From an uncultured Nocardioidaceae bacterium (lineage in GTDB: Bacteria > Actinomycetota > Actinomycetes > Propionibacteriales > Nocardioidaceae): DNA of 36,176 bases. Position 1 is the stretch's first letter. The number at the start of each line of letters is the position of its first letter. Location: NCBI GenBank assembly GCA_902805845.1, contig CADCUI010000039.1:1-36176 (forward strand). The letters are read 5' to 3'. The notes beneath the pieces are model-generated. The model was not told the origin of the DNA. It searched no databases and was given only the letters and a program-made list of their open reading frames with translations. The translations under genes were made by a program, and so were the position numbers. This document shows, one piece after another, positions 7,660-28,542 of this stretch.

Positions 7660-7731
7660 CTCTTAGCCGATCCATGGTGGCTCATGGTTCGCCATGGGGC
7701 CGACAGTCAGCCAGTTCACGCTCGGATCGTG

Positions 7732-7803
7732 TGGGCGATACTGGGTTTGAACCAGTGACCTCTTCCGTGTCAAGGAAGCGCGCTACCACTGCGCCAATCG
7801 CCC
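7732..7803 (-). tRNA. tRNA-Val (GAC)
   Basis: A 72-base cloverleaf on the minus strand. The acceptor stem is GGGCGAT/ATCGCCC, the anticodon arm is CTTCC-TTGACAC-GGAAG with anticodon GAC, and the T arm is ACTGG-TTCAAAC-CCAGT. The discriminator is A and CCA is not encoded. It is the last of a Gly-Cys-Val trio. Its 3' end faces the integrase relic. Confidence 0.96.
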
Positions 7804-7816
7804 TCAGGGTGTTTCG

Positions 7817-7887
7817 AGGTGGAGACGGGATTCGAACCCGTGTACACGGATTTGCAGTCCGTTGCCTCGCCTCTCGGCCACTCCACC
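7817..7887 (-). tRNA. tRNA-Cys (GCA)
   Basis: A 71-base cloverleaf on the minus strand. The acceptor is GGTGGAG/CTCCACC with discriminator T, as expected for tRNA-Cys. The anticodon loop CTGCAAA gives anticodon GCA, and the T arm has the GGTTCGAATCC pattern. It is the middle of the Gly-Cys-Val trio, a conserved actinobacterial cluster. Confidence 0.96.
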
Positions 7888-7917
7888 CAAGGAGTGGGGC
7901 ACTGCGACCCTTCTCCG

Positions 7918-7990
7918 AGCGGACGACGAGGCTCGAACTCGCGACCTCAACCTTGGCAAGGTTGCGCTCTACCAACTGAGCTACGTCCGC
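7918..7990 (-). tRNA. tRNA-Gly (GCC)
   Basis: A 73-base cloverleaf on the minus strand. The acceptor is GCGGACG pairing with CGTCCGC, the anticodon arm is CAACC-TTGCCAA-GGTTG with anticodon GCC, and the T arm includes GTTCGAGCC. It is the first gene of the Gly-Cys-Val trio. The divergent aminotransferase gene starts 128 bases away. Confidence 0.96.
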
Positions 7991-9396: not shown

Positions 9397-9752
9397 CGTG
9401 GTTGCCTCTCCCTTGGCACTGACGTCGCAGAGGCGGCCTCCCAGTGCCTCTGTGACGCGGATCCACGGATGTGTCGGGACCTTGTTCCCGGGCCGTTCGT
9501 CCGCGATTAGATTGCAGTGCACAGGGCTTCCCTGTACACACTAATGACCAAAGTCCTGCAGTTTGAACCCTTCGGGCTAGTCCCTCGGTGCTATGGCGGT
9601 GACACCGGATGGCCGAACGGTGGAGCACCTGACCCAGACGCGCCTCTCGGCATGGGTCATGGATGGCGGCCGGTGGCAGCCGCCCACCTGCGTGGCGGCC
9701 GGTCCGCGACGATGGGGTAACCTGTCCGGCGCGTCGACACCGTCGACTCCTG
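9397..9752. other. Leader and promoter region of the SsgA-like gene
   Basis: No convincing gene is visible. It holds about 120 bases of likely leader for the SsgA-like gene, an imperfect palindrome at 9517-9539, and sequence up to tRNA-Val(CAC). Open frames here run through the tRNA and are not credible. Confidence 0.45.
9517..9539. promoter_or_regulatory. Inverted repeat upstream of the SsgA-like gene
   Basis: GTGCACAGGG (9517-9526) and CCCTGTACAC (9530-9539) form a 10-base-arm inverted repeat with one mismatch and a 3-base centre. Its place about 120 bases upstream of the SsgA-like start suits an operator. The regulator is unknown. Confidence 0.4.
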
Positions 9753-9824
9753 GGGCGATTGGCGCAGTGGTAGCGCGCTTCGTTCACACCGAAGAGGTCA
9801 CTGGTTCGAACCCAGTATCGCCCA
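9753..9824 (+). tRNA. tRNA-Val (CAC)
   Basis: A 72-base cloverleaf. The acceptor is GGGCGAT/ATCGCCC, the anticodon arm is CTTCG-TTCACAC-CGAAG with anticodon CAC, the T arm is ACTGG-TTCGAAC-CCAGT, and the discriminator is A. Apart from the anticodon arm and one T-loop base it is identical to tRNA-Val(GAC) at 7732, in opposite orientation. Confidence 0.96.
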
Positions 9825-9832
9825 CTTCACGC

Positions 9833-9874
9833 AAACGGCCTCTCACCTGCGGAAACGCCAGGTAGGGGCCGTTT
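9833..9874 (+). terminator. Terminator of tRNA-Val (CAC)
   Basis: AAACGGCC (9833-9840) pairs with GGCCGTTT (9867-9874), with an inner CACCTG/CAGGT stem. The hairpin starts 9 bases after the tRNA and ends in TTT. Confidence 0.8.
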
Positions 9875-9997
9875 CCCCTCCGGCCTCGTGTCCCATACGG
9901 GGCCTACGGTCCCAGGCGCATAGGGGCACACCATGACTCACGACGTGCAGAGCATCGACCCGACGCCATCAACCCGCTACGGTCGCGCAGTCAGCGC

Positions 9998-10200
9998 ATG
10001 GAGCCGGTCGAGCTCGAGCTGGACTGCAGCCGCGACACAGACGCATTCGGCCACATCGTCCTGCGGCTCGGCATCGACGGGTCCATCGACAGGGTCATCG
10101 TGAATCCACCCAGCACGCCGACATGACCGAGGTGCTGCGTCAAGCGCGGGACGCCATCGCCGTACCCCTCGACGCCCTCGACCTGCTGAGCAAGCAGTAG
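9998..10200 (+). pseudogene. Small hypothetical gene broken by one frameshift
   Basis: A frame starting at ATG 9998 encodes MEPVELELDCSRDTDAFGHI, then VLRLGIDGSIDRVIVN, and ends soon after at TGA 10124. A different frame continues at once with QHADMTEVLRQARDAIAVPL and DALDLLSKQ up to TAG 10198-10200. Together they give one protein of about 66 residues with consistent coding character, so a single indel near 10107-10113 (in a CCACCC run) is likely. There is no recognised family. It may be a true pseudogene or a sequencing error; no ribosome site is obvious. Confidence 0.5.
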
Positions 10201-10263
10201 CTCACCGAGGGACTAAGGGCACTGGCGACCCGGCCGGGTCCATGACCTAGATTCTTTACCTAG

Positions 10264-10305
10264 AGCCCCGCGCCAGCATCCCCCGTCTGGTGCGGGGCTT
10301 GCTTT
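10264..10305 (+). terminator. Hairpin with T-rich tail, probable terminator
   Basis: AGCCCCGC (10264-10271) pairs with GCGGGGCT (10292-10299), followed by TGCTTTT. It shares the GAGCCCCGCGCC start with the hairpins at 2056 and 3536 and lies downstream of the frameshifted gene ending at 10200. Confidence 0.65.
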
Positions 10306-10446
10306 TGGCGGGCGGTCCCAAAGTCCGCCATCTTGAGCCGCTGGGACCTCGATGCCGCGATGCCGTTCTCGCAACCTCGACACCTTGGCGACCGGGTGCC
10401 CCAGTCCAGCCGTCCCAAACTTATGCATCTGCGTCCTCACCCTTGA

Positions 10447-10556
10447 CGACTCAGTGCGCGGGGGGAAACGCTGAGTCGCGAGTGGGGGGCATCCCAACTG
10501 TCCACTCGCCGCCCCTGTCCATCCCCTCGGTCGTCAATCCGCCGGTGGACAGGGGC
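10447..10556. other. Three consecutive perfect hairpins, candidate structured RNA
   Basis: Three stems follow one another almost without spacers: CGACTCAG (10447-10454) with 10471-10478; GCGAGTGG (10478-10485) with 10502-10509; and GCCCCTGTCCA (10511-10521) with 10546-10556. All are perfect. The first two have 16-base loops, both G-rich. No protein frame explains the arrangement. It could be part of a non-coding RNA, a regulatory leader or a protein-binding array; the direction of transcription is unknown. Confidence 0.45.
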
Positions 10557-10971
10557 TCTCTCTTGCTCCGGCTTGCAACATCATGCACTGCACGTTCCGG
10601 GGGGTTTGCACCCCTTTCGGCCCAGCCTCCCGTCGACCTACCTTGGAAAGGTCGAGAGAAGCGCAATAGGCCCGACTCCCAGGGCCCCGGTAGCGCGCCC
10701 GACCCACATAAAGGGGCCCGACATGGCCGGGAGGCGGCCTCCCAGAAGCCTCCCGCCCTCGGCTTGCCGGGTACGTGACCGTGGCTCTGAGCCAATGGTG
10801 ACCCCTGCTCACGCCGGGACCACTGCCCCGACCGTGGCTCGAACAACGCCCGTTATCGGCTGAGCGCTCACTCTCGCACACGACCATTGCTCGCGCTTCC
10901 ACCGCCTTCTGGCCATGGCCCTCGCCCTCTCGACAAGCACGCGGCATGAGAGAAGCAAGCGCAGCGTCGGG

Positions 10972-11060
10972 CCGCCCCGGTCGGAACTCGAGTCGACGGC
11001 CGGGGCGGTTGCCTGGAGTTCGCCGGTCAAGCTCCCGCGGACGGGTCAGGCGACCCGTCC
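10972..11060. other. Two further strong hairpins
   Basis: CCGCCCCGG (10972-10980) pairs perfectly with CCGGGGCGG (11000-11008). GGACGGGTC (11039-11047) pairs perfectly with GACCCGTCC (11052-11060) around the tetraloop AGGC. They lie in the gene-free segment upstream of the convergent membrane protein gene. Confidence 0.45.
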
Positions 11061-11207
11061 ACCGCGACGGTCGTCGGATGCACCCACTTCATGCACCCGC
11101 ACGCCTCGGTCCCTCGTACACCTACCAAGCAGGGGAACTAGGTCCCTTGTCCCGGCACGACGGACGCGCCACGATGGGACGCGAGCAGGACCCGAGACCT
11201 GCTCAGT

Positions 11208-11250
11208 CCCCCCGCCATCGTTCATTCGGTGCGCGGGGGGCCCTAATTTT
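11208..11250 (+). terminator. Intrinsic terminator with T-tract
   Basis: CCCCCCGC (11208-11215) pairs with GCGGGGGG (11233-11240) and is followed by CCCTAATTTT. This is the most textbook-like plus-strand terminator in the gene-free segment. It implies transcription from the left although no protein gene ends there. It could also serve the minus-strand gene ending at 11296 in the other direction. Confidence 0.6.
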
Positions 11251-11295
11251 GCGCGACAAAAAGACCCGGGATGCTCTGCGGCCGTCCGCCCCCGG

Positions 11296-11673
11296 TCAGC
11301 GTCGGTTGCGTCCGCTCCAGGCGTGGGCGGCGTTCACGGCTGCGATCCCCGCCCAGGCGACCAGGACGCCCGGAAGCCCGTCGCCGAGCGCGCCGGCAAT
11401 GGCAGTGATGGGGATCCCGGTCCCCAGCGAGACGATGCCGAGCACCATCTGCCGCTGGTGCCGTTGGCCGTGGTCGGCCTGGTGGCGACGACTCTCCTCC
11501 AGCTGCGCATCGACGCGAGCTTGGATCGCCGTCTCGATCTTGTCCGTGAGCGACTCGACGAGCGCCGGCTCGTAGGCCGGACCCAGATCGCGCCGCGCCT
11601 CGAGGACCGCTTCGACGTCCTGGGGATCGAGGTGGTGATGCGCGGGGCGCTGCCCACCGATGCGTTCCGCCAT
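11296..11673 (-). CDS. Conserved hypothetical membrane protein
   Basis: A 125-residue protein. The N-terminal 75 residues are charged and helical (DPQDVEAVLEARRDLGPAYE, SLTDKIETAIQARVDAQLEE). Two membrane spans follow (about 77-95, LGIVSLGTGIPITAIAG, and 98-116, GLPGVLVAWAGIAAVNAAHA). This layout is common in actinobacterial proteins without assigned function. The ATG at 11673 is preceded by a weak TAAGG. It is divergent from the TasA-like gene at 11788. A cytoplasmic coiled region tethered to the membrane is the most that can be inferred. Confidence 0.75.
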   Translation of the reverse strand: MAERIGGQRPAHHHLDPQDVEAVLEARRDLGPAYEPALVESLTDKIETAIQARVDAQLEESRRHQADHGQRHQRQMVLGIVSLGTGIPITAIAGALGDGLPGVLVAWAGIAAVNAAHAWSGRNRR

Positions 11674-11787
11674 GTCCGCGACCTTACGGTCCGCAGTGGC
11701 TGGGGGCTTCGCGAGACGGCTCGTCGCGCCAGGGGTGATTGTCCGATTAGCCCCTATAAGGCGCTCCGATTCCCTTATCGTTGCCGG

Positions 11788-12690
11788 GTGCCGCGCGCGA
11801 ACAGCCGGACCCTTCGGCTCCTGCTCAGCCTGGGAGTGATCCTGGGCGTCGGGTCGACGGCTACGGCCGCTACCTGGATCGACCCGGTGGCGGTCAGCGG
11901 GACGACGATCGGGACGGCCAACGTCGACCTGCAGGTGCAGGGGCTCAACACGGTGACGAACTACAGCGGCCTCACCATGACGAACCTCGCGGCAGGGCTC
12001 AGCACGGCCGGCGTGCTCACGGTGCGGAACAACGGGAACGTGCCGTTGCGGTACTACGTCGACGCGAGCGCCACCAACCCCGACGGCAAGGGGTTGGCGA
12101 CCGCCCTCGAGGTCAAGGTCACCAGCAACGGCGCGACCTCGGGAACACTGCCCAACCGCACCTGCGCCAACGGGGCCCTCGCCGGCACGGCGTCCTCGTT
12201 CACGTCCAGCTTCGTCGGTTCGGCCGCATCCCCTCGGTCTCTGGCCGCCGGCGCCTCCGAGACCTTGTGCATCCAAGCCGGGCTGCCCAGCACGGCGCCG
12301 ACCACCCTGCAGACGGCCAGCACCGCGGTCAGCTTCTCCTTCACGGCCGCGATGGTCCCGGCCAGCAGCTGGGCGGACTCAGTCGCGGTCAGCGGCACGA
12401 GCCTGGGGACGCCGACCCTCGTCACGCCGACGTTGTCCTGCGCCGCGCAGAATTCGATCCAATCGGTGGTGGAGTGGTCGGCCTCGACCGGGGCGACCGG
12501 CTATCGGCTCTACTACGGCACCGGCAGCACGTTGACCGAGGACCTTCTGGCTAGCCAGAGGAGCTACCCGTTCAAGGCACCCACGTCAGGTACGGCGTAC
12601 GTGCAGGCGCTGTACGGCCCGGTCTGGCTGTCGGCCAATTCCAACAGTCGCACCTACTTCGCCGACGGGAACACCACGACCTGCAGCTGA
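11788..12690 (+). CDS. TasA-like secreted protein with SipW-type signal and Fn3-like C-terminus
   Basis: A 300-residue secreted protein. The GTG start at 11788 is followed by a SipW-dependent-type signal region (RLLLSLGVILGVGSTATAAT, then WIDPVAVSGTTI). Residues about 45-195 form a TasA/camelysin-like domain closely matching the protein at 26561, with shared patterns STAGVLTV, PLRYYV, DGKGL and ASETLCIQ. Two conserved Cys (in RTCANG and ETLCIQ) may form a disulfide. Residues about 215-300 are a unique Fn3-like extension (VVEWSASTGATGYRLYYGTG). No signal peptidase gene is adjacent, so the SipW enzymes at 25-28 kb probably process it. A fibre or matrix role is inferred from TasA. Confidence 0.82.
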   Translation: MPRANSRTLRLLLSLGVILGVGSTATAATWIDPVAVSGTTIGTANVDLQVQGLNTVTNYSGLTMTNLAAGLSTAGVLTVRNNGNVPLRYYVDASATNPDGKGLATALEVKVTSNGATSGTLPNRTCANGALAGTASSFTSSFVGSAASPRSLAAGASETLCIQAGLPSTAPTTLQTASTAVSFSFTAAMVPASSWADSVAVSGTSLGTPTLVTPTLSCAAQNSIQSVVEWSASTGATGYRLYYGTGSTLTEDLLASQRSYPFKAPTSGTAYVQALYGPVWLSANSNSRTYFADGNTTTCS

Positions 12691-12695
12691 GCGGC

Positions 12696-12791
12696 TCACC
12701 TCGTGAAGATCAGCACCAGGATCACCGTGATGACGATGGAGACGAGCAACGAGCCGCCGCAGCCCAGTCGGTTGCTGAAGAAGACGAACAT
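12696..12791 (-). CDS. 31-residue single-span membrane peptide
   Basis: On the minus strand ATG at 12791 follows GAGGAG by 6 bases, an excellent ribosome site. The peptide is MFVFFSNRLGCGGSLLVSIV followed by ITVILVLIFTR: a short cationic N-terminus with a GCGG motif, then one membrane span. It ends 5 bases from the convergent stop of the TasA-like gene. Similar tiny membrane proteins are scattered in actinobacterial genomes, usually unannotated. The function is unknown. Close convergence with the TasA-like gene may be chance. Confidence 0.7.
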   Translation of the reverse strand: MFVFFSNRLGCGGSLLVSIVITVILVLIFTR

Positions 12792-13082
12792 AGGGGGCTC
12801 CTCGGTGACGTGACGACGGACTCGGCCTCCCGCCGGAGGGCGTCCGCGCTGCTGTTGGCGCAAGAGACGGAATCATGTCCTGCCTCGCGAAGCGGAAACC
12901 CGAGACCGACGCCCGTCACCGGGGACAACCACGCATCGGCCTCAGCCGCACCGCTCGAGCAGGGTTGGGCGATGCTCTCGTGGGTATCAGGGACTCAGCC
13001 GAGCCAGTTCACGCACCATGACGGATCGCGCTAGCAGGAGCCCTCCGCGTCTCGGGATCGGAGGGCTCCGCTGCGTCCGGAC
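12792..13082. other. Intergenic region upstream of the 31-residue peptide gene
   Basis: No convincing gene is visible. It contains the minus-strand ribosome site and presumed promoter of the 31-residue peptide gene and, at its right end, the hairpin at 13037-13069. Confidence 0.4.
13037..13069. terminator. 11-bp perfect stem hairpin
   Basis: GGAGCCCTCCG (13037-13047) pairs perfectly with CGGAGGGCTCC (13059-13069) around an 11-base loop. It is a probable terminator, but neither flank has an intact gene ending close to it. Confidence 0.6.
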
Positions 13083-13427
13083 GTGCCACCCGCGACGGCC
13101 ACGAGGGCGCCAGTGACCGAAGACCCGAAACCGGACCACCCGAACGTGTACCGACTCTGGCCGATCAGCCCCTGTGCCGCCGCCGCCGCAGGCAGTCCAC
13201 TGTGCACTGTGACGGGCACTCTCGGGCCAGGGCGCGGCGACAGCGCGAACACCGACGTACTCAGCCGACATCTCGACGACTGGCGGCGGCTGGAGTCAGC
13301 CGCTCGCGAACGCGGGGACGTGGCCCGTGCCGACGAGCTGGCACGAGTGGTGAGTGACTACGAAACCGAGGTGGCGGCGCGCACGGAGGCGACCAACGGC
13401 GACCTCCGCCACCAGGGGGGCGGCTGA
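13083..13427 (+). CDS. Hypothetical protein
   Basis: A frame of 114 residues from the start at 13083. The first 45 residues are Pro/Ala-rich with little protein character. The second half is amphipathic and helical (LSRHLDDWRRLESAARERGD, then ARADELARVVSDYETEV) and looks real. An internal GTG at 13209 would give a 72-residue product restricted to that part. I do not recognise a family. Codon ends are G/C-rich throughout. Confidence 0.45.
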   Translation: MPPATATRAPVTEDPKPDHPNVYRLWPISPCAAAAAGSPLCTVTGTLGPGRGDSANTDVLSRHLDDWRRLESAARERGDVARADELARVVSDYETEVAARTEATNGDLRHQGGG

Positions 13428-13649
13428 GGCGGTTCCTCCACGGACCCATCCCCTGCGAGGGGCCGGCACGAACTCGGGGTGTCGTCACCGCAACGACCGA
13501 GGGGCTCGCGCGCGTTCGCCGCGGCTGCCTGTCGCCGGTGATGCGCGCAGGTGGCACCCCGTGATACCTCTCCCTCTCGCGCGGGTGCCACCTCCCGCGC
13601 CCTGCTTTCGAGCGTGACACGCCCATCAGGGCCGCGCCACAATGCACAT

Positions 13650-13871
13650 ATGAGCGACATGGTGAACGACATGGTGTTCGAGTTCCCAGAACGTGAGCAG
13701 CGAGACCGAGCGGTCGCCCGGCTGAGGGAGCAGGGGCTGCAGCCCGCCATCCCCCCGCAGCCGCCCACCGACGTCTTCCCGATGCGGGTCGCCAACGTCC
13801 CCGCCGAGAAGCGCGCCGACATCGAGACCGCGGTGCGCAAGGTGGCACCGGACACGAAGATGCGCCACTAG
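13650..13871 (+). CDS. Small hypothetical protein, 73 residues
   Basis: ATG at 13650 starts a 73-residue charged protein: FEFPEREQRDRAVARLREQG, a Pro-rich turn, then VANVPAEKRADIETAVRKVA. The alternation of strand, helix, strand, helix suggests a small ferredoxin-like alpha/beta fold, but this is inference. There is no recognised family, no signal peptide and no membrane span. It is a stand-alone gene followed by a hairpin at 13999. Confidence 0.6.
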   Translation: MSDMVNDMVFEFPEREQRDRAVARLREQGLQPAIPPQPPTDVFPMRVANVPAEKRADIETAVRKVAPDTKMRH

Positions 13872-23071: not shown

Positions 23072-24312
23072 TGCGGATCGGTCTCGTGTGCCCCTACTCC
23101 TTCGACGTCCACGGCGGGGTGCAGCACCACGTCCGGTCGTTGGCGGCGAGCCTGCACGCCTTGGGGCACCAGGTGGCGGTCCTGGCGCCGGGCGAGCAGC
23201 CGGACGCCGACGGCGGCCGGGCGCCGGCGTACGTGACGACGACCGGGCGGGCGATCGCGATGCCCTACAACGGGTCGGTCGCGCGGGTGGCCTTCGGCCC
23301 GCTCGTCGCCGCGCGGGTGCGCCGATGGCTCGCCGACGGTCGCTTCGACGTGCTCCACATCCACGAGCCCGCCACGCCGAGCGTCTCGGTGCTCGCGCTC
23401 TGGGCCGCCCGCGCCCCCGTGGTGGCGACCTTCCACACCTCCCAGGAGCGCTCCCGCACGCTCGAGACCTCCGCGGCGACCCTGCTGCGGGCCGGCCTGG
23501 CGAAGATCGAGGGGCACATCGCCGTGTCGGAGGCCGCTCGGGAGACGATGGCGCGCTACCTCGAGGTGACGCCGACCCTCGTCCCGAACGGGGTGCACCT
23601 CGCCGACCTCGTCCCTGACCGCGCGGCACCAGCGCGAGCGGACGACACGGCTCCCACCCTGCTCTTCCTCGGCCGGCTCGACGAGCCCCGCAAGGGGCTG
23701 TCGGTGCTCCTCGCCGCGCTCCCCTCCATCGCGCGGCGGCATCCCGCGGTGCGACTGGTGGTGGCCGGAGCAGGCAACGGGCCGGCAGTCGTGCGCGCGC
23801 TCCCGGAGGAGGTGCGCCACCGCGTCGAGGTCCGGGGCATCGTGGACGAGGCCGCCAAGGCGCGGCTGCTCGCGGGGGCGGACGTCCTCGTGGCGCCCAA
23901 CACCCACGGCGAGAGCTTCGGGATCGTGCTGGTGGAGGCGATGGCCGCAGGAACGGCGGTGGTCGCCAGTGACCTGCCCGCCTTCCGCCGCGTGCTCGAC
24001 GACGGCAGCCTCGGCCGGCTCTGCACCCCCGGCGACCCCGGCGGTCTGGCCCGTGAGGTCACCCGGGTGCTCGCGGACCGCGACGGCCGGGCACGGCTGG
24101 CGGACCGGGCCGCGGTCGCCGCGGCGGCGTACGACTGGCCGGTCCTGACCCCCCGCATCCTGGAGGTGTACCGGTCGGTGCTCAGGCGCCCTCGCGCCGT
24201 CGCGGCCGGGCTGAGCGGCCCGCTCCCGGCACTGGCCGTCGGCGGTAGGATGGGGGCATCCATCGTCCCGGGCGCCGCGGCGTCCCCCGAGCACGAAGAA
24301 GAGCGCACGTGA
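23071..24312 (+). CDS. pimA: GDP-mannose-dependent phosphatidylinositol alpha-mannosyltransferase
   Basis: A 413-residue GT4-family, GT-B-fold glycosyltransferase that adds the first mannose to phosphatidylinositol. The N-terminal [20 protein letters not shown] holds the glycine-rich acceptor loop. [10 protein letters not shown], the nucleotide-sugar region [13 protein letters not shown] (198-210) and the EX7E motif E281-SFGIVLV-E289 follow. A C-terminal extension of about 30 Ala/Pro-rich residues follows the domain. ATG 23071 overlaps the patA stop, and its own stop overlaps the pdxS GTG (GTGA). Confidence 0.95.
24246..24251 (+). promoter_or_regulatory. Possible internal promoter for pdxS
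   Basis: TAGGAT within the 3' end of pimA lies 57 bases before the pdxS GTG. It fits the local -10 pattern and could give pdxS its own transcript, while coupling from pimA remains possible. Confidence 0.35.
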
Positions 24313-25244
24313 CTGACGGCACCACCGACATCCAGACCTCCGACCAGGGCTCCGCACCGCAGCGCGCCACCGGCACCGCGGGGGTGAAGCGAGGCATGGC
24401 GGAGATGCTGAAGGGCGGCGTCATCATGGACGTCGTCACGGCCGAGCAGGCGAAGATCGCCGAGGACGCCGGTGCCGTCGCGGTGATGGCGCTCGAGCGG
24501 GTGCCCGCCGACATCCGTGCCCAGGGCGGGGTCTCCCGGATGAGCGACCCCGACATGATCGACGGCATCATCGAGGCCGTCTCGATCCCGGTCATGGCGA
24601 AGGCCCGGATCGGCCACTTCGCCGAGGCCCAGGTCCTGCAGAGCCTCGGCGTCGACTACATCGACGAGTCGGAGGTGCTGACCCCGGCCGACTACGCGCA
24701 CCACATCGACAAGTGGGCGTTCACCGCTCCCTTCGTCTGCGGGGCCACCAACCTCGGCGAGGCCCTGAGGCGGATCACCGAGGGCGCGGCGATGATCCGC
24801 TCGAAGGGTGAGGCCGGCACGGGCGACGTCTCCAACGCGGTCACCCACATGCGCACCATCCGCGCGGAGCTGCGGCGGCTGCAGGGCATGGAGAAGGACG
24901 AGCTGTACGTCGCGGCCAAGGAGCTCCAGGCGCCGTACGCGCTGGTCAAGGAGGTCGCCGAGGCCGGCAAGCTGCCGGTGGTCCTCTTCACCGCCGGCGG
25001 CATCGCGACCCCGGCCGACGCCGCGATGATGATGCAGCTCGGCGCCGAGGGTGTGTTCGTTGGCTCCGGCATCTTCAAGGCCGGCAACCCGGCCCAGCGT
25101 GCCGAGGCGATCGTGAAGGCCACGACGTTCTTCGACGACCCCGACGTGGTCGCCAAGGTCTCCCGCGGTCTGGGCGAGGCGATGGTCGGCCTCAACGTGG
25201 AGGACATCGCCCAGCCGCACCGGCTGGCCCAGCGCGGCTGGTAG
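24309..25244 (+). CDS. pdxS: Pyridoxal 5'-phosphate synthase, lyase subunit PdxS
   Basis: A 311-residue TIM-barrel enzyme that combines ribose-5-phosphate, glyceraldehyde-3-phosphate and ammonia into PLP. Visible are [20 protein letters not shown] with Asp41, the first imine Lys98 in [13 protein letters not shown], the second Lys166 in [12 protein letters not shown], and [14 protein letters not shown] near the end. The GTG at 24309 overlaps the pimA stop. Ammonia is supplied by PdxT (27934). The two genes, normally adjacent or nearly so, are separated here by about 2.7 kb holding four SipW/TasA-type genes. Confidence 0.97.
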
Positions 25245-25404: not shown

Positions 25405-25947
25405 ATGAAGAAGACAGTGAAGGGCATCCTCGCCACGGGTGCCGGTGTGGCGCTGCTGATCGGGGGCACCGGGACGCTCGCGTTCTGGACCGACAGCAAG
25501 CCGATCACCGGCGGTGCCATCAACAGCGGCCACCTGAGGCTCGTCACGGACGCGACGAACACCGGTTGCGGCGTCTGGAAGCTCGACTCGGGCGAGTCCG
25601 CCCCAGTGAGCTACACCGTCGGTGACCCGATCGTCCCCGGTGACGTGCTCACCCGGGAGTGCGCCTACACCGTGCAGGCCACCGGCAACCACCTCCGGGC
25701 CACGGTGGGGATCTCGGCCGTGAACTTCTCCGGCGCCTCCTCCAACTTCGGTGGGAGGCTCTCTGCGTCGGTTTCGGCGGTCAGGCTCAATGGGAGCCCG
25801 ATCACGAGCTTCACCGAGGCCGCCGACAGCGGGGCCCTGTCCGCCGACGTGACTGTCACCTTCGACTCGGCGGCCGCGAACTCGACCCAGGACCTCGCCA
25901 CCGTGCTCGACTCGCTCACGCTGACCGCCACCCAGGTGCACAGCTGA
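25405..25947 (+). CDS. Secreted protein with alternate (SipW-type) signal peptide
   Basis: A 180-residue protein. The N-terminus KKTVKGILATGAGVALLIGG followed by TGTLAFWTDSKPI matches the alternate-type signal peptide family (TIGR04089-like), which ends in an A-F-W-x-D motif and is processed by SipW signal peptidases. The mature part (about 150 residues) is Ser/Thr-rich beta structure with two Cys (in TGCGVW and RECAYT). ATG 25405 has AGGAG 5 bases upstream. It is the first gene of the cassette and probably a surface or fibre subunit, by analogy with TasA/CalY systems. Confidence 0.85.
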   Translation: MKKTVKGILATGAGVALLIGGTGTLAFWTDSKPITGGAINSGHLRLVTDATNTGCGVWKLDSGESAPVSYTVGDPIVPGDVLTRECAYTVQATGNHLRATVGISAVNFSGASSNFGGRLSASVSAVRLNGSPITSFTEAADSGALSADVTVTFDSAAANSTQDLATVLDSLTLTATQVHS

Positions 25948-25982
25948 CCGGACCCGCCGGCGCGGGTGGGCAGACAACCACG

Positions 25983-26564
25983 ATGACGACCTGGTCTCAG
26001 ACGACTCCACGGCGACGGGCCGGCCGGGTGGCCGGCGCGGTGCTGCTGGCTGCCGCGATCGCCCTGCTGGTCATCGCGGTGCTCGTGCCGATGGCCGCCG
26101 GTGGCAAGGCCTACACCGTCCTCACGAGCTCGATGTCGCCGGCGCTCGAGCCGGGCAGCCTGGCCATGGTGCGACCTGTCGACACCGAGAACATCGGCGT
26201 GGGTTCGGTGATCACCTACCAGCTCCAGTCCGACAAGCCCGAGGTGGTCACCCACCGGGTGGTGACCATGGGACTGCGCGAGGACGGCTCGCCGGTGTTC
26301 CGCACCAAGGGGGACGCCAATCCCACCCCTGACCCGGAGTGGGTGCGCCCCGTCCAGGTCATCGGCAGCGTCTGGTACGCCGTGCCCTACGTCGGCAGGC
26401 TCAACAGCCTCATGACCCCGCAGCACCGCGACCAGCTGATCCGGGCGATCGCGGTCTCGCTGATGGCCTACGGCCTGTTCGAGCTGCTGGTCGCCGCGCG
26501 GGACCGGCTGGCGCGACGTACCCGGCAGTGGGACCGCCGGTGGGGCCGGGAGGTGGCGCGATGA
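25983..26564 (+). CDS. SipW-like signal peptidase I (first of two)
   Basis: A 193-residue membrane peptidase of the ER-type S26 family. A first membrane span (about 15-37) is followed by TSSMSPALEPG with the catalytic Ser50. The second catalytic residue is His91 (VVTHRVV) in place of the bacterial Lys, as in SipW and eukaryotic signal peptidases. GDANPTPDPEWV is the conserved box after it, and a second span lies at about 145-165. A basic cytoplasmic tail ends in RRWGREVAR. The stop overlaps the ATG of the TasA-like gene (ATGA). It probably removes the signal peptides of the neighbouring proteins. Confidence 0.9.
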   Translation: MTTWSQTTPRRRAGRVAGAVLLAAAIALLVIAVLVPMAAGGKAYTVLTSSMSPALEPGSLAMVRPVDTENIGVGSVITYQLQSDKPEVVTHRVVTMGLREDGSPVFRTKGDANPTPDPEWVRPVQVIGSVWYAVPYVGRLNSLMTPQHRDQLIRAIAVSLMAYGLFELLVAARDRLARRTRQWDRRWGREVAR

Positions 26565-27151
26565 GGGAACGACTCCGCCGGCTGCGCCGCCTCGACGGCC
26601 GGTCCTTGCGCATCCTGCTGAGCCTCGGCGTCGTCGTCGGGATCGGCGCCACGGGCACCTTCGCCGCCTGGACCGACTCGGTCGCCATCACCGGCACGAC
26701 GATCTCGACCGGCACCATCGACCTGAAGGTGAACAACGCCGACACCGTGAGCACCTTCACCACCATGAACATCACCACGATGGTCCCGGGCAACTCCACG
26801 GCCGGGGTCCTCACCGTCTCCAACTCCGGGACCGCGCCGCTGAGGTACTACGTCAACGCGACCGTCTCCAACACCGACGGCAAGGGGCTGGGCAACGCCC
26901 TCGGCGCCAAGGTGACCGGGGACGCCACGGTCACCGGGTCCTCCCCCTCAGCCACCTGCGCAAGTGCTGCGCTGGGTGGCACCAGCACCGGCTTCGGCTC
27001 GAACCTGGTGAGCTCGGCGACACCGCGGCTGCTCGCCCCCGGCGCCTCCGAGACCTTGTGCATCCAGGCGACCCTGCCGAGCGGCGCTGCCCAGAGCCTC
27101 CAGAACGCGACCACGAGCATCCAGTTCAACTTCACCGGGAGCTCCTTCTGA
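26561..27151 (+). CDS. TasA/CalY-like protein with SipW-dependent signal peptide
   Basis: A 196-residue secreted protein. A basic N-terminus (RERLRRLRRLDGRS) precedes the hydrophobic LRILLSLGVVVGIGATGTFA and the A-W-T-D motif of SipW-dependent signals. The mature domain shares STAGVLTV, PLRYYV, DGKGL and ASETLCIQ with the protein at 11788, including two Cys positions, but lacks the C-terminal Fn3-like extension. The start and stop overlap the two signal peptidase genes (ATGA and TGATG). TasA homologues polymerise into extracellular fibres; that role here is inferred. Confidence 0.87.
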   Translation: MRERLRRLRRLDGRSLRILLSLGVVVGIGATGTFAAWTDSVAITGTTISTGTIDLKVNNADTVSTFTTMNITTMVPGNSTAGVLTVSNSGTAPLRYYVNATVSNTDGKGLGNALGAKVTGDATVTGSSPSATCASAALGGTSTGFGSNLVSSATPRLLAPGASETLCIQATLPSGAAQSLQNATTSIQFNFTGSSF

Positions 27152-27861
27152 TGCACGGGCTGACCCTCACCGTCGGACGGCACCTTCAGCAGCTGGCGCT
27201 GACGATCGCGGCCGTGCTCGGCGTCGTGTGCCTGCTGATGACCGTGGCCGCGCCGCTGCTCGGCGTACGGCCGCTGATCTTCCTGTCGGGCTCCATGGAG
27301 CCCACGATCCCGGCGGGCAGCCTGGGCTTCGCCCAGGTCATCCCCGCTGGGGAGATCGCCGTCGGCGACGTGGTCACGGTGCCGGTCGAGGACTCCTACC
27401 TCACCCACAGGGTCATCGAGGTCACCCATCACCACCACGCGGCCGCGCTGCGACTGCAGGGGGACGGCAACCGGGATCCCGACCCGTCGGTCCACCAGGT
27501 GACCGAGGTGCCGAAGGTGATCACGTTCGTGCCGGAGGCGGGCACCGTGGTGGCCTGGTTCTCCCGGCCACCCGGGGTCTACGTGCTCGCTGCCTATGTC
27601 GCGTTCGCGGTCGGCCTCCTGCGGCGCCGTCACGACCGGGGCAACCGTCACGAGGTCGGCAGACACCGTCGCGAGGACCAGCGCGGAAGCCGCCGGCGCC
27701 GGCAGGGAGCGTCGACACTCCAGCAGGGTCGCCGGTGGGGGCGGCGTGCGGTCGCAGCAGGGGTGGCGACGAGGGCTCCCCTGGCCGGCTCGCGACCACT
27801 CCGCGCCGCCCTCGACACGCGCCCTTGCTACGAGCTCACCGGCAGGCTTGCCTGCTTCTGA
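27151..27861 (+). CDS. SipW-like signal peptidase I (second), with basic C-terminal tail
   Basis: A 236-residue ER-type S26 peptidase. A first span lies at about 15-37. FLSGSMEPTIPAG carries the catalytic Ser48, LTHRVIEV the catalytic His86, and GDGNRDPDP the conserved box. A second span at about 137-160 (PGVYVLAAYVAFAVGLL) is followed by an unusual tail of about 75 residues rich in Arg, Gly and His and ending in Cys (GRLACF). ATG 27151 overlaps the stop of the TasA-like gene. Two different SipW enzymes in one cassette suggest separate substrates, or a division between cleavage and assembly. Confidence 0.88.
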   Translation: MHGLTLTVGRHLQQLALTIAAVLGVVCLLMTVAAPLLGVRPLIFLSGSMEPTIPAGSLGFAQVIPAGEIAVGDVVTVPVEDSYLTHRVIEVTHHHHAAALRLQGDGNRDPDPSVHQVTEVPKVITFVPEAGTVVAWFSRPPGVYVLAAYVAFAVGLLRRRHDRGNRHEVGRHRREDQRGSRRRRQGASTLQQGRRWGRRAVAAGVATRAPLAGSRPLRAALDTRPCYELTGRLACF

Positions 27862-27933: not shown

Positions 27934-28542
27934 GTGACCCACCCCCTTCGTGTCGGCGTGCTCGCGCTGCAGGGCGACGTCCGTGAGCACCTCGCCATGC
28001 TCGAGGCGTCCGGGGTGGAAGCGGTGCCGGTACGCCGCGCCGAGGAGCTCGGCTCCCTCGACGGCCTCGTGCTGCCGGGTGGCGAGTCCACCACGATGTC
28101 GAAGCTGGCGAGGACCTTCGACCTGCTGGAGCCGCTGCGCCAGGCCGCGAAGGACGGACTGCCGATGTTCGGCACCTGTGCGGGGATGATCATGCTCGCC
28201 GACCGGATCGAGGGCGGGACCGCGGACCAGGAGACGATCGGCGGGCTCGACGTGGTCGTGCGGCGCAATGCCTTCGGCCGCCAGGTGGACTCGTTCGAGG
28301 CCGACCTCGACGTGGCGCGGCTCGGCGAGGTCTTCCACGCGATGTTCATCCGTGCGCCGTGGGTCGAGGGCGTCGGCCCCGACGTCGAGGTGGTCGCCAC
28401 CGTGGCCACCGGCCCGGCCACCGGTAGGATCGTGGCGGTTCGCCAGGGGCACCTGCTCGCCACCTCCTTCCACCCGGAGGTGACCGGCGACGCGCGCATC
28501 CACGAGGTCTTCGTCGAGATCGTGCGCGACGCTGCGAGCTGA
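27934..28542 (+). CDS. pdxT: Pyridoxal 5'-phosphate synthase, glutaminase subunit PdxT
   Basis: A 202-residue class I glutamine amidotransferase that hydrolyses glutamine and channels ammonia to PdxS. The start [14 protein letters not shown], the LPGGESTTM loop (48-55), the nucleophile Cys82 (FGTCAGMI) and the His180-Pro-Glu182 pair (SFHPEVTGD) complete the catalytic triad. GTG 27934 is probably the first base of the mRNA. The gene lies 72 bases after the second SipW gene and upstream of yebC. Confidence 0.96.

Follow-up and report, generated by a model that had tools for sequence, protein, structure and literature searches.

A SipW/TasA-like gene cassette between pdxS and pdxT in an uncultured Nocardioidaceae bacterium, and a candidate donor-strand surface fiber

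Four genes between pdxS and pdxT

The window analyzed here is a 36,176-nt stretch from an uncultured Nocardioidaceae bacterium (assembly GCA_902805845.1, contig CADCUI010000039.1) that contains a cassette of four genes situated between pdxS and pdxT, the genes for the two subunits of pyridoxal 5′-phosphate (PLP) synthase. The order on the plus strand is pdxS (lyase subunit, 24309..25244; NF003215, E 1.4e-157), g1 (25405..25947), SipW-1 (25983..26564), g3 (26561..27151), SipW-2 (27151..27861) and pdxT (glutaminase subunit, 27934..28542; TIGR03800, E 3.6e-72), and all four cassette open reading frames (ORFs) are open, in agreement with an initial annotation made from the DNA letters alone. That annotation described the genes as tightly overlapping, which applies to SipW-1/g3 (4 bp) and g3/SipW-2 (1 bp), the only two overlapping junctions, but not to g1 and SipW-1, as the start ATG of the latter (25983) lies 35 bp beyond g1. 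Spacers of 160 and 72 bp separate pdxS from g1 and SipW-2 from pdxT, respectively.

The gene g1 encodes a SipW-dependent secreted beta-sandwich protein that matches TIGR04089 (exp_by_SipW_III) over its full length (profile positions 1-179 of 179; 119.3 bits, cut-off 60) and also carries a SipW-type signal of TIGR04088 (26.6 bits, cut-off 19), as does g3 with 24.7 bits. A signal peptide is predicted at 25405-25482 in g1, with cleavage at A26|F27 and Trp28 at P2′, and at 26561-26665 in g3, with cleavage at A35|A36 and Trp37 at P2′. Residues A26, W28 and P78 of g1 are invariant in 68 rows and again in 74 rows, and C133 and C167 of g3 are invariant in the g3 alignment. These alignments held 62 of 70 (g3) and 67 of 73 (g1) rows from named loci plus the window, and the final count used all of them. 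Pairwise profile comparison, signal peptides included, showed that g1 and g3 are related (E 7.4e-14); in the window, both end without an LPxTG motif.

An AlphaFold2 model of g3, built from a 63-row alignment, had a predicted local distance difference test score (pLDDT) of 85.1, with low values in the first 40 residues. When it was compared with 350,542 PDB chains using Foldseek, the TasA fiber 8aur ranked first (E 1.5e-5), the archaeal bundling pilin AbpA (7ueg) second (8.3e-4) and a Sulfolobus thread (7pnb) third (1.2e-3), with several chaperone-usher pilins amid other beta-sandwiches at lower ranks. Superposition on 8aur by VIA gave a Z-score of 8.1 and a root-mean-square deviation of 3.3 over 127 residues. 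Searched against PDB sequences, the g3 profile placed axonemal FAP74 first (3.3e-5), followed at ranks 2-4 by AbpX (0.0039) and TasA (0.009 and 0.011). For g1 (model pLDDT 86.6), the top four fold matches, all non-significant, include AbpA, the CFA/I pilin and TasA. Together with the TIGR02228 matches of the peptidases described below, the TIGR04088 and TIGR04089 matches and the fold ranking of g3 uphold the SipW/TasA-like identity first proposed from motifs, the predicted structure of g3 having a TasA fiber as its best match, of moderate strength.

Two SipW peptidases and a module fused to SipW-2

Both peptidases exceeded the TIGR02228 cut-off (51.85 bits), SipW-1 with 89.5 bits (in a query that started 12 bases upstream of its ATG) and SipW-2 with 56.9 bits, and neither reached the Bacillus SipW equivalog NF046067 (63.2 and 42.5 bits, cut-off 190). 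The Ser-His dyad of the endoplasmic reticulum (ER) type, which had been claimed for both enzymes, is seen in both sequences, and all 88 SipW-1 and all 63 SipW-2 rows, those of the window included, have the three catalytic residues Ser, His and Asp. In a tree of 155 SipW domains, SipW-2 formed one clade of 63 rows with a Shimodaira-Hasegawa-like approximate likelihood ratio (SH-aLRT) support of 99. A long-branch artefact of this quick tree was considered and rejected, as a mixture-model tree rebuilt from 56 rows picked from the 155 kept the SipW-1/SipW-2 split at 100/100, with a bootstrap that was not fully settled.

SipW-1 was found in 48 of 79 intervals from Nocardioidaceae (hereafter, the family) and SipW-2 in 38, each of which also held SipW-1; a similar co-occurrence in the tree set (56 SipW-2 loci) was discarded, because those loci had been retrieved with a SipW-1 query and could not but contain that gene. 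The SipW-2 gene usually lies directly 3′ of g3. Six family cassettes (G013, G029, G044, G075, G078 and G132) contain g1 and g3 with no gene of the SipW-2 clade, and these genomes carry other, unclassed SipW-type matches outside the cassette. Since the simple gene caller missed some real genes (for example, SipW-2 in L040, L063 and L064), absence was judged with an ORF and hidden Markov model scan as well.

Within the window's own genome, SipW-1 and SipW-2 are the sole TIGR02228 matches above the cut-off, so substrates encoded elsewhere in it probably depend on these two enzymes. The genome carries five SipW-type signals above the cut-off and three TIGR04089 genes. Further orphan SipW-type substrates occur on C79:31000-44000 (two, L137) and on C9:42000-51462 (one, L138), with no SipW match within these two stretches; one of the C79 substrates is a 393-aa ORF whose C-terminal half is of no known type. 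Among relatives, a third, divergent SipW-like peptidase was observed in the pdx interval of L073 (8362-9225), L058, L067 and L062, with other substrates (xWTxA starts and a LamG-like protein). Four rows of the tree are probably of this third type (L058 being the L191 locus), and only one of them has Asp at the position of the catalytic Asp. In genus g20 (Aeromicrobium), loci L034, L041, L042, L049 and L071 hold tandem double cassettes, between which lies a short extra SipW-2-clade peptidase that has no module of the kind described next.

The consistent difference between SipW-1 and SipW-2 is a module fused to the latter. Tails of at least 95 aa were present in 55 of 63 SipW-2 but in only 5 of 88 SipW-1 sequences, and a strict second SipW-type site, with a hydrophobic segment before it and at least 60 residues after it, was present in 40/63 SipW-2 vs. 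1/88 SipW-1, where shuffled tails would be expected to yield 1.33 and 0.05, respectively. The lone SipW-1 case is a rearranged locus of Nocardioides bruguierae. With locus L194 excluded, the loop ahead of the third hydrophobic segment was net positive in 37 of 39 cases and a preceding hydrophobic segment was present in 37, and the module is therefore predicted to be extracellular. Its profile matches fibronectin type III (FN3) chains (best E 2.5e-9).

The module also occurs apart from the peptidase. In four of the six cassettes that lack SipW-2 (G132, G075, G013 and G029) it is encoded separately and preceded by a signal, whereas genome G377 and the window itself have it fused to g3. The peptidase thus appears dispensable for the module. 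Both g3 fusions retain a W-[TA]-D start with no signal before it, which favors a structural or interface role for the Trp.

In the window, SipW-2 ends in an Arg-rich stretch of 79 aa beyond its second hydrophobic segment (22 Arg; best 18-mer hydropathy 0.68). A frameshifted module 3′ of the gene was considered and rejected, since no ORF of at least 60 aa there matches the module. The only module match in the window's own genome at E≤0.01 (E 1.6e-21, with a profile that included that row) lies within an orphan g3 paralog, g3′, about 13 kb upstream on the plus strand (11788..12690; g3 profile 116 bits, module profile E 4.6e-8; likely start GTG at 11788). This gene consists of a hydrophobic N-terminus, a TasA-like domain and an FN3 module (12364..12687) that begins with the donor-like SSWADSVAVSG, aligns with the SipW-2 modules of relatives and is up to 36% identical to them. 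It is located ~2 kb downstream of tRNA-Val(cac) (9753-9825), no other gene being called at 9522-13650 by the simple gene caller, and this gene-poor stretch could be an island remnant. The initial annotation mentioned neither this second g3 nor the fused module, nor the LPxTG gene of relatives.

Cleavage signature, LPxTG proteins and distribution

Site counts were taken from alignments rather than pattern scans, with g1 and g3 rows picked by profile and module rows by motif. Ala at P1 together with Trp at P2′ was found in 71/71 g3 and 74/74 g1 rows (145 in all), and the Pro of a Pro-Gly motif in 66/71 g3 rows, 74/74 g1 rows and 21/21 LPxTG proteins of relatives. None of these 21 proteins (aligned from 32 LPxTG ORFs in named loci) has an aromatic-x-acid start in its first 12 mature residues. 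The modules show the converse arrangement: a donor-like start and an FN3-type domain, with PG[DNSET] in 3 of 29 aligned rows (the window and 28 of the 41 modules from named loci) or, when the set was widened, in 8 of 41.

PMC10151520 and PMC9674648 place Phe29 of TasA, its P2′ residue, in the donor strand, where it contacts Pro62 at the point of highest conservation in the interface, and describe TapA as a donor-only initiator with a complete immunoglobulin (Ig) fold. Mapped by position, the Trp and Pro-Gly of g1 and g3 would be equivalent to F29 and P62 of TasA. From the motif distribution and these interface facts, the subunits appear to sort into donor-only (module), donor-acceptor (g1 and g3) and acceptor-only (LPxTG protein) types. 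An interface role of the aromatic P2′ residue is suggested by its invariance in the 145 rows and its retention in the two g3-module fusions that lack a signal.

The LPxTG protein is encoded by 30 family gene calls, all immediately 3′ of SipW-1, and was present in 27 of 48 family SipW-1 loci, a lower bound as the caller misses genes. An AxA-type signal was found in 28 of the 30, and the scanned SipW-type pattern in none. By pairwise profile comparison, its domain is related to those of g1 (E 2.1e-7, probability 93.6) and g3 (2.7e-6, 88.5), and a search of PDB sequences with its profile found nothing under E 0.1. The protein has the LPxTG motif, hydrophobic segment and basic tail of a sortase anchor; the L222 representative exceeded both PF00746 (21.9, cut-off 20) and TIGR01167 (23, cut-off 15.9), and that of L170 fell under both (12.3 and 15.4). 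The window genome has two sortases.

Among 149 family genomes, pdxS was found in 143, pdxT in 142, TIGR02228 above the cut-off in 94 and TIGR04089 above the cut-off in 63. The two pdx genes lie within 15 kb of each other in 135 genomes and are separated by more than 2 kb in 58, the interval ranging from about 15 bp to 12 kb. A TIGR04089 gene was present inside it in 47/149 genomes (47 of the 63 with TIGR04089; nine with at least two copies), in seven family genera (g1, g5, g6, g7, g9, g14 and g20); the window genome is one of five in its own genus. In family intervals with both pdxS and SipW-1, all 202 classed g1, g3 and SipW genes have the same orientation as pdxS, and this conservation excludes chance as the origin of the arrangement. 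A recent insertion into one genome, as the initial annotation had implied, is likewise rejected in view of the 47 genomes; the interval is a site that varies in content and size.

In a class sample of 394 genomes, TIGR04089 was above the cut-off in 33, 12 of them from outside the family. Of these 12, viewed in stretches of 13 kb (7.7 kb in one case), G377 alone was flanked by both pdxS and pdxT; a Promicromonosporaceae metagenome-assembled genome (MAG) is the other non-family case of the pdx location. Named-genome loci were retrieved with an alignment query, a single SipW-1 query having given no matches. In these 80 loci (flanks up to 6 kb), both pdx flanks were seen in 23 and one in 13, and 24 SipW-2-clade loci had no pdx genes in view, including those of Gordonia, Williamsia, Rhodococcus, Prescottella, Arthrobacter and an Intrasporangiaceae MAG. 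The same gene set was thus found elsewhere, in Rhodococcus, Gordonia, Williamsia and Arthrobacter, and the gene order conserved across families rejects a set of scattered housekeeping genes. No TIGR04089 match was found in 14 control genomes, B. subtilis among them. Taken as a whole, the widespread pdx location in the family and the loci elsewhere indicate a unit that is either mobile or has been retained repeatedly, with the pdxS-pdxT gap as a favored site in the family.

A donor-strand fiber and its alternatives

These results lead us to regard it as fairly probable that the cassette builds a surface fiber of the TasA/AbpA type held together by donor strands, with the module capping or initiating the fiber and the LPxTG protein anchoring it. 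SipW-1, and perhaps SipW-2, would process the precursors of g1 and g3 directly behind the P1 Ala, so that the second mature residue is Trp. The N-terminal strand would then enter the groove of the next subunit, where the Trp would pack by the conserved Pro-Gly, a contact like that between Phe29 and Pro62 of TasA. The SipW-2 of most relatives is joined through a transmembrane segment and the second SipW-type site to the FN3 module, which has a donor start and mostly no Pro-Gly; once freed, the module could act as TapA does, capping one end of the fiber with the donor strand from which it starts. The LPxTG protein, which has Pro-Gly and no donor Trp, would accept the final strand, and sortase would attach it to the wall. 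More tentatively, SipW-2 may carry its own substrate, freeing one C-terminal donor module per enzyme and so starting each fiber at the site of secretion; with the sorted subunits, this would amount to a self-initiating, wall-anchored donor-strand pilus that needs no chaperone or usher, a possibility that we would not yet call probable. In the window, the module strand of g3′ might fill the groove of its own g3 domain, making g3′ a self-started end subunit, a guess that is consistent with a TapA role, and a fiber with no LPxTG partner may be shed or held otherwise.

Several observations weigh against this scheme. The full model rests on relatives, because SipW-2 of the window has no module (neither a second SipW-type site nor a further hydrophobic segment was found in its tail), g3′ matches no Pfam or NCBIfam family, TIGR04088 included, and the window cassette has no LPxTG gene; no match to the LPxTG protein was obtained at E≤0.1 in its genome, which is 96% complete, in a search that had no positive control. 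Sorting of the subunits is not clean, given that 8 of the 41 modules have PG[DNSET] and that 5 of the 30 LPxTG proteins of the family showed an aromatic-x-acid triplet when residues 19-50 were scanned more loosely. The motif-bearing module is not universal in SipW-2 (the strict site being absent from 23 of 63), one of the 40 strict sites (L194) looks like a chance match, and no module was found in G044 or G078, both of which lack SipW-2 in the cassette. Most long tails of Rhodococcus, Gordonia and Williamsia contain the module without the aromatic P2′ residue, so the scheme does not extend to all. Support for the fold of g3 is moderate, with TM-scores of 0.46/0.40 against 8aur and a VIA Z-score that is equaled by two glycosidase chains and is near the tool's level for common arrangements. 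g3 scored 20.6 bits with PF12389 (Pfam camelysin/TasA), below the cut-off of 22.5, and the fold search of the PDB with g1 found nothing at E≤0.001. PF12389 also gave no match over the window's whole genome; the B. subtilis control did match.

The alternative that best survives concerns the module. It may never be released but stay tethered to the membrane on its outer side, where it would keep subunits close to the peptidase as a scaffold or chaperone. The third hydrophobic segment could simply span the membrane as an ordinary helix, and the tails of Rhodococcus, Gordonia and Williamsia mentioned above fit this reading. However, the P1-Ala/P2′-aromatic site is kept in 40/63, modules encoded alone come with a SipW-type signal, and two modules are fused to g3 rather than to a peptidase, all of which make a permanent tether doubtful, if worth keeping in mind.

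The g1 and g3 proteins could also be ordinary soluble secreted proteins or enzymes that form no fiber, the TasA-like fold being merely a common beta-sandwich. The middling Z-scores and their ties with unrelated beta-sandwich domains would agree with this, as would the FAP74 sequence match of g3 and the lack of a significant fold match for g1. We nevertheless consider it unlikely, because the three top Foldseek matches of g3 are filament subunits, the signal is unusual and served by dedicated peptidases, and the Trp and Pro-Gly, the pair that forms the TasA interface (PMC10151520), are nearly invariant.

The initial annotation had suggested two SipW enzymes for two substrate types, which would have SipW-1 cut g1 and SipW-2 cut g3. 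The two deep clades (100/100) and the usual position of SipW-2 directly after g3 speak for such a division, but g1 and g3 share one cleavage signature over all 145 rows, six cassettes have enzymes of the SipW-1 clade only (with the further unclassed SipW-type matches in those genomes noted above), and what consistently differs between the enzymes is the fused module. Two specificities are therefore distinctly improbable. Least likely of all is a functional tie to PLP synthesis with co-regulated fiber and vitamin B6 genes, for although the cassette genes share the pdxS strand (202/202) and this location recurs in seven family genera and two genomes outside, many relatives have little or nothing between pdxS and pdxT and others have unrelated genes there (AurF oxygenase, TetR), and the 24 named SipW-2 loci elsewhere show no pdx genes within their flanks.

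Returning to the donor-strand fiber, the closest known system is the tapA-sipW-tasA operon of Bacillus subtilis, with which the cassette shares an ER-type SipW, a signal with an aromatic P2′ residue, a TasA-like fold and the aromatic-proline interface residues; TapA, an initiator with a donor strand and a complete Ig-type domain, would have its counterpart in the FN3 module here. It differs in having two SipW paralogs, Trp at P2′, two invariant Cys in g3 and the g1 family, to which relatives add the SipW-2-fused FN3 module and an LPxTG-anchored subunit. The sipW-tasA/calY region of Bacillus cereus and sipW-bsaABCRSD of Clostridium perfringens likewise combine several filament-type substrates with SipW in one region (PMC13082335; PMC7395162), but in the accessible parts of these papers there is a single SipW, srtB is unneeded for BsaA polymers and no peptidase-substrate fusion is described. 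Archaeal AbpA/AbpX and Sulfolobus threads resemble g3 as its second and third fold matches, AbpX being also its second sequence-profile match; they are archaeal, and the likeness is one of fold and sequence. With sortase-assembled pili of the SpaA/EbpC type, the system shares a possible wall anchor in the LPxTG protein of relatives, but g1 and g3 of the window lack LPxTG, and strand exchange would take the place of isopeptide bonds.

In a literature search that covered neither most subscription papers nor any bioRxiv preprints, no paper on an actinobacterial SipW/TasA cassette was found, which agrees with the earlier description of such a fiber-type system as little described. The fiber reading is plausible and better grounded than when first proposed, and the peptidase-module fusion is the more interesting feature. 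If true, the fiber reading would add soil actinobacteria to the Bacillota and archaea in which TasA/AbpA-type fibers have been studied. Two of its features, the fusion of a peptidase with an initiator-like module and a partner anchored by sortase, are absent from the papers found. It would also account for the need for a special peptidase, as the aromatic residue required at the interface would be the one that ordinary signal peptidase handles poorly; LepB is reported to process an aromatic P2′ residue poorly (PMC10269814).

Two further observations concern the surroundings of the cassette. In genus g5 (L053, L073 and similar loci), genes for DUF6891, an AurF-type oxygenase, a ferredoxin/FAD reductase and TetR, as assigned by Pfam on L053 only, recur as a block in the pdxS-pdxT interval. 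In the window itself, three consecutive tRNA genes (Val, Cys and Gly) lie on the minus strand at 7731-7990.

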